Shown here in pieces: positions 41,962 to 51,869 of a stretch of DNA of 64,000 nt (the stretch's first letter is position 1; every line of letters begins with the position of its first letter). This DNA comes from Gammaproteobacteria bacterium (lineage in GTDB: Bacteria > Pseudomonadota > Gammaproteobacteria > UBA6429 > Thiohalophilaceae): assembly GCA_016194635.1 (NCBI GenBank), contig JACQBC010000017.1:62001-126000 (forward strand), read 5' to 3'. The notes beneath the pieces are model-generated. The model was not told the origin of the DNA. It searched no databases and saw only the letters and a list, made by a program, of their open reading frames with translations. The translations under genes and the position numbers were made by a program.

Positions 41962-42018
41962 AGACATTAAAACTGCAACCGATACAGGAATCACGTCACA
42001 AAGATAAGGTTGCTGTCT

Positions 42019-42498
42019 ATGCGGGTACTACTGGGTTTGATTTGTATCGTTGCAATGAATATGCCCGTAATGGCGGATGAATTGGATCTGGTGCTCAACG
42101 GCAAGGCGCTCCATTTGCGCGATGGCAAGTATAACGAAAAAAATTGGGGTCTGGGCTTTAATTATGATTTCGACGAACACCATCACTGGATCAATTTTCT
42201 GCACGGCAGTGTGTTTAAGGACAGTAATAATCAAACTTCAAACTACCTTGGGGGCGGGATGAAGCGGCGTTACCACTTGGACAGAGATCCGAATGGCTGG
42301 CGCGTGGATGGCGGCTTTATCGCGTTTTTAATGACACGACAGGATTTTCATAACAATAATCCGTTTTTCGGTGCGTTACCGTTTGTCGCCGTCGGCAAAG
42401 GGTGGTTTACACTCAATGCCACTTACATTCCAGCGATTTCACCCAAGCATACGGATTTATTTTTCTTTCAAGCCATGGTGCGCGTCGCGCAGTTTTAA
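42019..42498 (+). CDS. PagP-like outer-membrane beta-barrel protein, putative lipid A acyltransferase
   Basis: Exported protein of 159 residues with a signal peptide at about 1-19. The mature chain is short (about 140) and resembles PagP: NEKNWGLGFNYDF (39-51) corresponds to NERPWGGGF, VFKDS (65-69) to AFKDS, and TRQDF...PFFGALPFVAVG to the second half of PagP. PagP uses a His-Asp-Ser set; Asp68 and Ser69 are kept, and His32 is a candidate for the His, although its spacing is shorter. ATG 42019 follows an AAGG site. It lies 3' of ArnT-like and PAP2 genes, which suits lipid A remodelling. Palmitoyltransfer is inferred. Confidence 0.7.
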   Translation: MRVLLGLICIVAMNMPVMADELDLVLNGKALHLRDGKYNEKNWGLGFNYDFDEHHHWINFLHGSVFKDSNNQTSNYLGGGMKRRYHLDRDPNGWRVDGGFIAFLMTRQDFHNNNPFFGALPFVAVGKGWFTLNATYIPAISPKHTDLFFFQAMVRVAQF

Positions 42499-42789: not shown

Positions 42790-42920
42790 TAATGAGGCGT
42801 ATGGAAAGGATACCCCCCCACCAAGACCGTCAGCCGCAGGGATGCTGCTGTCGAGCCTACGGGATGTATTGACGGCGTGTCTTGGTGGGGAGGTATCCTT
42901 TCCATGTGACTCAGTAATAA
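42790..42920 (+). repeat. Palindromic intergenic repeat, copy A
   Basis: A 131-base near-palindrome. The left arm from ATGGAAAGGATACC (42801-42828) pairs with the right arm (42880-42905) with one mismatch over 26 bases, and the outer TAATGAG and GACTCAGTAA ends also pair partly. The loop of about 45 bases holds GCAGGGATGC and the core GGGATGTATTGACGGCG (42861-42877). A second copy with the same orientation lies at 51737-51869. Non-coding; open frames through it are translations of the hairpin. Confidence 0.9.
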
Positions 42921-43059: not shown

Positions 43060-43218
43060 GGTTGCCGGGTTCAGCGCTGCGAGTGGCTGTTGGTGACAGG
43101 GACGATGCGCAGGGAAGTGCAAGTGTCGCACGAGGCAGGATGCCGGGAGCGACTGCCGCCATCAAGTCTACACGGAGGTATACACGGCGAGTCGCTCGCA
43201 GCGCTGAACCCGGCAACC
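43060..43218 (+). repeat. Palindromic element C: shares the repeat core, different stems
   Basis: A 159-base element whose first 24 bases (43060-43083) and last 24 (43195-43218) are perfect inverted repeats. Its 111-base interior contains a 25-base block (43165-43189) that matches the core of copy B (51802-51826) at 21 of 25 positions, and a GCAGGATGC resembling the GCAGGGATGC of copies A and B. The stems are unrelated to those of A and B. Several short open frames run through it on both strands, but none has a family resemblance. Confidence 0.85.
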
Positions 43219-50988: not shown

Positions 50989-51657
50989 ATGGTGATTCAA
51001 TGCCGCAATCTCTCTAAAACGTTCACCGAAGGGCCAACTCCAGTGGAGGTGTTGCGTTCAATTGATTTGGATATTGGCAGTGGTGAGCAAGTTGCGATTG
51101 TCGGGGCCTCAGGCTCAGGTAAAAGTACCTTATTGCACCTGCTGGGAGGGCTGGATTTACCTACCGCGGGCGAGGTAACGGTCGACGGCCAGCGCATGCA
51201 TCAATTAAATGACAACGCGCGCGGTGCACTGCGCAACCGGACCTTGGGATTTGTGTATCAGTTTCATCACTTGTTGATGGAATTTACCGCCTTAGAAAAC
51301 GTCGCGATGCCGCTGCTGGTGCGTGGTACAGGGGTTGCGTCAACCGTCCAAGCCGCCACCACATTATTACAGCGTGTCGGCTTAGAGCATCGCCTGCAGC
51401 ATAAGCCCAATGAGCTGTCCGGCGGAGAGCGGCAACGGGTCGCCGTGGCCCGTGCGTTGATCACCCAACCTAAATGTGTCCTGGCCGATGAACCCACCGG
51501 CAACCTCGACACTACCACGGCCGACCAGGTGTACGAACTCATGCTTGAATTGAATCGCGACTATCAAACCAGTTTTTTGGTGGTTACCCATGACACCCGT
51601 TTTGCAGCGAAAATGGATCGCGTATTGCACTTGAATAATGGAAGACTCCAACAATAA
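50989..51657 (+). CDS. lolD: Lipoprotein-releasing system ATP-binding protein
   Basis: ATPase of 222 residues powering lipoprotein release with the permease just upstream. Walker [10 protein letters not shown] is at 39-47, the signature [12 protein letters not shown] about 144-155, and Walker [10 protein letters not shown] near 165. [18 protein letters not shown] is a LolD-like segment. Its end is followed by 256 bases holding palindromic repeat copy B. Confidence 0.95.
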
Positions 51658-51736: not shown

Positions 51737-51869
51737 TAATGAGTCGCATGGAAAGGGATACCCTCCCACCAAGACCGTCAGCCGCAGGGATGCTGCTGTC
51801 GAGTCTACAAGGATGTATTGACGGCGTGTCTTGGTGGGAGGGTATCCTGTCGATGTGACTCCGTAATAA
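51737..51869 (+). repeat. Palindromic intergenic repeat, copy B
   Basis: A 133-base near-palindrome closely matching copy A at 42790-42920, in the same orientation. GGATACCCTCCCACCAAGAC on the left arm pairs perfectly with the right arm, and the outer GAGTC parts pair too. Relative to A, the C-run/G-run differs on both arms in a way that keeps pairing. It lies between lolD and comEC. Short open frames through it are hairpin translations. Confidence 0.9.

Follow-up and report, generated by a model that had tools for sequence, protein, structure and literature searches.

The 64,000-nt stretch of DNA analysed here (the window) carries three copies of a long hairpin, and the copy at 43060-43218 on the + strand raises a simple question: why should a nearly constant apex be held on stems that differ from copy to copy, and what might recognise it? 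An earlier note, made from the sequence alone, had described this hairpin and proposed that its apex is the recognised part, for example by a protein or a processing enzyme. In this study, we compared the element with the other copies in the window, in its source genome and across many gammaproteobacterial genomes, and weighed the possible explanations of its conserved tip.

The Hairpin at 43060-43218 and Its Neighbours

The element at 43060-43218 was classified, on its inverted repeat, its fold and its family membership, as a class III element, a variable-arm long hairpin whose first apical hairpin is enlarged. Its stem, P1, is built from a left arm at 43060-43088 and a right arm at 43190-43218 (+ strand), of which GGTTGCCGGGTTCAGCGCTGCGAG (43060-43083) and CTCGCAGCGCTGAACCCGGCAACC (43195-43218) are exact reverse complements over 24 nt; the inverted repeat can be extended to 29 nt at 93%. 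The predicted fold of the + strand RNA had a minimum free energy of -94.4 kcal/mol and a z-score of -8.6. The core at 43165-43189 was identical to copy B (51802-51826) at 21 of 25 positions, and the best matches in 60 dinucleotide shuffles of the 64-kb window reached only 15-19 of 25. Moreover, the core pattern TACANGGANGTATTNACGGCG, allowing up to three mismatches, had exactly two matches in the window, namely this copy and copy B, against 0.08 expected.

Several claims of the earlier note were confirmed by these results. A third hairpin with 24-base perfect arms and a 21/25 core match to copy B held, as the arms are exact and no shuffle exceeded 19 of 25; its distance of 139 bases from copy A held as well (139-143 nt, depending on where copy A is taken to end), and so did the statement that its arms share nothing with copies A and B. 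The description of the stems as unrelated was true between classes and only partly true inside the variable-arm class, where the arms resemble those of other non-A/B copies. The left arm GGTTGCCGG recurs in three copies of the same genome (L011, L012 and L326).

Copies A (42790-42916, + strand) and B (51756-51847, + strand) both belong to a fixed-arm class, class I. In copy B, two CsrA-type sites (51785-51792 and 51808-51815) are spaced 23 nt apart. Copy A has one CANGGANG site, at 42837-42844; its second apical hairpin (HP2, about 42857-42870) has lost one base (TACGGGATGTA) and with it the fit to CANGGANG, and the site in its first apical hairpin (HP1) is intact. All three window copies have the core on the + strand and lie downstream of a + strand gene; a PagP-like gene (42010-42498, +) and an ABC ATPase gene (50989-51657, +) are the genes upstream of the repeat copies in the window.

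A Dispersed Repeat Family of Gammaproteobacteria

The hairpin at 43060-43218 belongs to a family of dispersed palindromic repeats found in Gammaproteobacteria. Searches of the source genome (3.7 Mb, 37 contigs) found 22 places with the core of this copy as query and 41 with the core of copy B, where scoring covered only 40 of 108 candidates. A covariance model, R1, built from 69 copies of many species, matched at least 95 copies in the source genome; two relatives have at least 59 each, and matches occurred in 18 of 40 relatives overall. Among 398 sampled genomes of the phylum, matches were present in 33, every one of them in the same class. Matches occur in many gammaproteobacterial orders, and the genera with the core include Stenotrophomonas, Methylotuvimicrobium, Microbulbifer, Rheinheimera, Alcanivorax, Marinobacter, Ectothiorhodospira and Yersinia. 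The core pattern was counted 498 times in M. buryatense (Methylotuvimicrobium), 127 times in Methylomicrobium sp. wino1 and 64 times in Yersinia similis. In Yersinia, the repeat has been published as YPAL/RU-2 (RU-2 sequence, PMC2759123); a family spanning the whole class is new as far as the literature searched shows.

The consensus core had no match in either the phage or the plasmid collection, and only one match was found among 2.9 million viral contigs; a Yersinia-type query found 28 plasmids. Enterobacterial plasmids, as well as one E. coli chromosome, carry a YPAL-type copy (L355:6001-6136, L357:6001-6136 and L356:8001-8136) about 60 nt downstream of the stop codon of a gene for an iron-containing alcohol dehydrogenase, with insertion sequences nearby. 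A phage or plasmid origin of the family was rejected on these results; in the two plasmids and the one E. coli chromosome inspected, the copy is a passenger.

A Constant Junction on a Nearly Free Stem

In the alignment of 69 copies, the family layout consists of stem P1 of about 28 bp, HP1, the linker AGCC, HP2 (of TACA-N-GGA-N-GTA type) and an unpaired strand TTYACGGCG. Compensated changes were observed in 38 of 39 pairs across these copies of many species, and P1 had no sequence consensus except beside the junction. In each copy, a stem of about 28 bp with nearly free sequence bears the constant three-way junction and its two short hairpins. The earlier note would have been refuted had the shared core arisen by chance; this was not the case, and a chance origin was rejected by the 60 shuffles, the 0.08 expected pattern matches and the 38/39 covarying pairs.

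Three forms were recognised in the source genome. Class I, to which A and B belong, has fixed arms and numbers about 40 copies or more; the arms of class II are variable; and in class III, the type at 43060-43218, further small hairpins enlarge HP1 by about 51 nt. This third class was also found in another genus of the family, and its extra hairpins bear GGA loops in both genera. The copy at 43060-43218 has four CsrA-type sites in all (+ strand). The first, CAGGGACG at 43097-43104, lies in the enlarged HP1 and is conserved when class III copies of two genera are aligned. The second, CAGGGAAG at 43110-43117, presents in the predicted fold a hexaloop AGGGAA with C-G closing. CAGGATG at 43136-43142, in the hairpin GGCAGGATGCC, is conserved in class III, and its sequence follows CAGGA(U/A/C)G, the motif repeated in CsrB (PMC7652899). 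The fourth site, CACGGAGG at 43171-43178, lies in the apical hairpin HP2, TACACGGAGGTA (43169-43180).

The junction's 3' strand, conserved and unpaired (TTYACGGCG in the family consensus), follows at 43181-43189; this strand and the AGCC linker are unpaired and nearly invariant class-wide, and to our knowledge no role has been described for either. In three further copies of the source genome (L003, L016 and L020), HP2 as well as HP1 is enlarged with small GGA-loop hairpins, and these doubly enlarged copies suggest that the apex grows by nesting. Outside the left arm, the flanking base is A in 60% of copies from other genomes (L083-L201), often as GA or GAA, and the partner on the right side is G in 44%; the outer A might mark an insertion point or form a closing A.G mismatch. 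No T-run follows the right arm, a feature required of an intrinsic terminator, and this candidate was rejected.

Arms Change as Paired Modules

Comparison of arms and cores across genomes supported the claim of a constant apex on interchangeable stems. Among the non-A/B copies of the source genome, the arms within a copy were complementary at a median of 97%, left arms of different copies were only 47% identical, and the cores were 87.5% identical; the arms of the A/B class matched those of the other class at 33%. The check that the earlier note had suggested, comparing the arms that flank each core match, showed them to be mostly self-complementary and different between copies: a strong flanking inverted repeat was present at 170 of 195 copies of many species and at 15 of 398 random places. 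Cores without flanking inverted repeats, which would have spoken against the claim, were met at only about 13% of copies, and several of those inspected were truncated or rearranged.

The Stenotrophomonas maltophilia complex showed the same pattern: a core of about 60 nt was 97-100% identical, with arms that were different yet each self-complementary, and in these regions 590 cells had changed on both sides versus 189 in shuffles. We further examined 80 kb of synteny in ten Stenotrophomonas genomes with seven orthologous intergenic sites. Most of these sites were occupied in most of the genomes, the types of arms, HP1 and HP2 differed by strain at the same site, and arms and hairpins changed as paired modules. 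Stem cells at these sites comprised 1021 compensated Watson-Crick differences, 159 one-sided wobbles and 222 one-sided breaks (381 one-sided in all), these counts being cells and not independent events. Selection for pairing and recombination between copies would each suffice to explain the excess of compensated changes, and the two cannot be separated on the present data. Insertion into an existing hairpin, or an inverted target duplication, was sought at the seven sites as a source of variable arms, and no clean empty site was found among them in the ten genomes. Interchangeable arms are new as far as the literature searched shows.

Two side observations concern this complex. Copies often stand as divergent pairs 260-400 nt apart (L284-L323; near 24, 34 and 40.5 kb along the joined stretches). 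In some other strains, a different, SMAG/REP-like palindrome occupies the 40-kb site instead of the repeat.

The Apical Loops Fit the CsrA/RsmA Consensus

Both apical loops, HP1 and HP2, read C-A-N-G-G-A-N-G. The columns of HP1 were conserved at C 94, A 96, G 100, G 97, A 99 and G 91 percent, with both N positions free, and HP2 showed the same eight-position pattern. The conservation of HP2 was partly built in by the search pattern; HP1 was in no query for that genome set. CANGGANG was present in 76 of 85 hexaloop hairpins adjoining the core versus 14 of 1095 other hexaloop hairpins at the same loci. The RsmE/CsrA consensus is A/UCANGGANGU/A (PMC6849547), and the free positions of the apical loops are exactly its Ns. 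CsrA ligands selected by SELEX have the consensus RUACARGGAUGU, mostly with loops of six nucleotides in which AC and GU are paired (PMC7652899); HP2 is close to this consensus, and an A-N-G-G-A-N hexaloop closed by C-G was met in both apical hairpins (columns 56-64 and 81-88 of alignment A1). The apical loops are of CsrA type in that they fit the CsrA/RsmA consensus CANGGANG.

The arrangement of the two sites was also regular. Their spacing was 23 nt from start to start in 93 of 98 two-site copies (alignments A3 and A4), which is within the range that a CsrA dimer bridges, at least 10 and at most 63 nt with an optimum above 18 (PMC7652899). In addition, csrA was encoded in all ten genomes tested, including the source genome. 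Some features fit less well. SELEX is said to have disfavoured very stable stems among its winners (PMC7652899), and the HP1 stems of the repeats are long; HP2 was not always formed in single-sequence folds (L110 and L158); and CsrA does not account for AGCC and TTYACGGCG, whose conservation equals that of the loops. Binding by CsrA and transcription of the core strand remain inferences, with no binding or expression data. The claim that the apex is recognised by a protein accordingly stays inferential, now with CsrA/RsmA as its specific candidate. No paper joining YPAL and CsrA was found in the literature searched, and an apex matching a CsrA site is new within that scope.

Which Strand Is Likely to Be Used

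Arm mismatches on the core strand were mostly of the G.T kind, with G.T to A.C counts of 143:26 in a species-diverse set and of 89:41 and 34:12 in two other alignments; the source genome alone was weakly skewed (40:25, p = 0.08). Because G.T exceeds A.C in the arms, the core strand appears to act as a folded single strand, most simply RNA. Strand-biased mutation could possibly contribute to this excess. Relative to neighbouring genes, copies occurred in both orientations with no clear sense bias under crude gene calls, and hence many copies would be transcribed from the wrong strand.

Discussion

We propose that the apex serves as a CsrA/RsmA docking module within a dispersed repeat family, a reading that we favour by a modest margin only, as neither binding nor expression data support it. 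In an RNA read from the core strand, the apex would form a two-site docking module for CsrA/RsmA: each apical hairpin would offer an A-N-G-G-A-N hexaloop closed by C-G, and the 23-nt spacing would suit one CsrA dimer. The stem would lift both hairpins, may shield the RNA and would otherwise be a neutral holder. Because it would merely hold the hairpins and perhaps shield the RNA, only pairing would be kept, and its letters could drift or be swapped. In the copy at 43060-43218, the enlarged first hairpin comes with additional sites, four in total. Copies transcribed from neighbouring genes would tether or titrate CsrA.

A possible alternative is that the apex is recognised by a transposition or recombination enzyme acting on single-stranded DNA, like those of IS200/IS605, RAYT or integron attC systems, in which case the fold alone would be read and the stems would be free. 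This would account for dispersed copies with 92-98% identity, and the strand-specific wobble tolerance fits a folded DNA strand too; the fixed stem length, the purine-rich GA just outside the left arm, and the target duplications and empty sites published for YPAL (PMC2229807) point the same way. Against it, a Y1 transposase is absent from the source genome despite at least 95 copies, and 21 of 22 Y1 loci in the genomes searched had no core in the fetched flanks, the exception being L267 with a core at 2108; mobilisation by a Y1 transposase was rejected, as none exists in the source genome and no association was seen elsewhere. A parent IS sharing the class I terminal repeats, as a MITE would have, was not evident among the 90 listed end matches in the source genome, and an enzyme does not predict that both loops equal the CsrA consensus.

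Two other explanations find less support. The repeat might be a generic 3'-UTR stabiliser or processing site of RNA, as proposed for YPAL, working through its stem without a specific protein. YPAL reportedly is co-expressed with upstream genes and possibly affects transcript stability (PMC2229807), and copies A, B and 43060-43218 lie downstream of a + strand gene in the core-sense direction. We consider this unlikely, as a stem alone needs no apex conserved across orders, an overall sense bias is absent and no T-run follows the right arm. Least likely of all is a functionless, selfish palindrome in which DNA repair or template switching copies arm onto arm and gene conversion evens the cores. 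Such a process would fit the large excess of compensated over one-sided changes at orthologous sites, including G-C to C-G without a wobble step, as well as the near-identical cores on different arms and the module swaps; the bias of G.T over A.C and the conservation of loop and junction across distant orders would nevertheless be left unexplained.

If the apex does bind CsrA, as in the docking reading that we prefer, then the free stems and fixed tip would be explained, an abundant repeat of many gamma-proteobacteria would gain a specific and easily tested function, and there would be a route by which the targets of a global regulator spread through a genome. Although YPAL and other palindromic repeats of its kind have long been known, no role has been settled for them. 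A bolder reading, which we regard as less likely than not, is that these class-wide and probably mobile repeats are a portable CsrA/RsmA landing site, placing genes under CsrA or forming a distributed sponge, and swapping their stems with the apex kept. In that case, up to hundreds of copies with two to four sites each would be spread over a genome.

Comparison With Known Systems

The nearest known relative is YPAL/RU-2, with the same apical core (RU-2 reads gcgccaaggatggcgcggctcgagcctacatggatgtatttacggcgtc; PMC2759123) and a dispersed, intergenic, long hairpin. YPAL has, however, been described as one 168-bp family of Yersinia and Erwinia, whereas a fixed unit with common arms was not found here; the present arms are unrelated to those of Yersinia, HP1 can be enlarged, and many gammaproteobacterial orders are involved. 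A review of YPAL reports that targets are duplicated over 3-26 bp and lie at dyad symmetry, and that empty sites exist (PMC2229807). The Yersinia repeat is also covered by the Rfam family Ysr224 (RF02770), with 126 bits at L147, and RF02770 weakly matched four source-genome copies (L010, L011, L012 and L019); Ysr224 differs in that it models the opposite strand and describes a Yersinia sRNA, and at L147:7888-7994 it is the antisense strand of a YPAL-type repeat. REP/REPIN sequences with RAYT and TIR repeats with TIRYT (PMC3733652) are likewise short, high-copy palindromes of gamma-proteobacteria, S. maltophilia included, but the present repeats have another architecture, without a Y1 transposase in the source genome or an association with one elsewhere.

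On the side of CsrA, no known Rfam RNA was found on the core strand of the repeats. CsrB/CsrC and RsmX/Y/Z similarly contain several GGA hairpins of CAGGA(U/A/C)G or CANGGANG type (PMC7652899); those are single sRNA genes with many sites, whereas the repeats have two to four sites in tens to hundreds of copies. TwoAYGGAY RNA (RF01731), a candidate CsrA-binding RNA (PMC4333381) listed for gut, gamma-proteobacteria and Clostridiales, resembles the repeats in having two CsrA-type hairpins in its core and an outer stem described as poorly conserved, but is not known as a high-copy dispersed repeat. The RF01731 covariance model gave no match to the repeats even at permissive thresholds, and we therefore do not file them under TwoAYGGAY; it is nonetheless the closest precedent.
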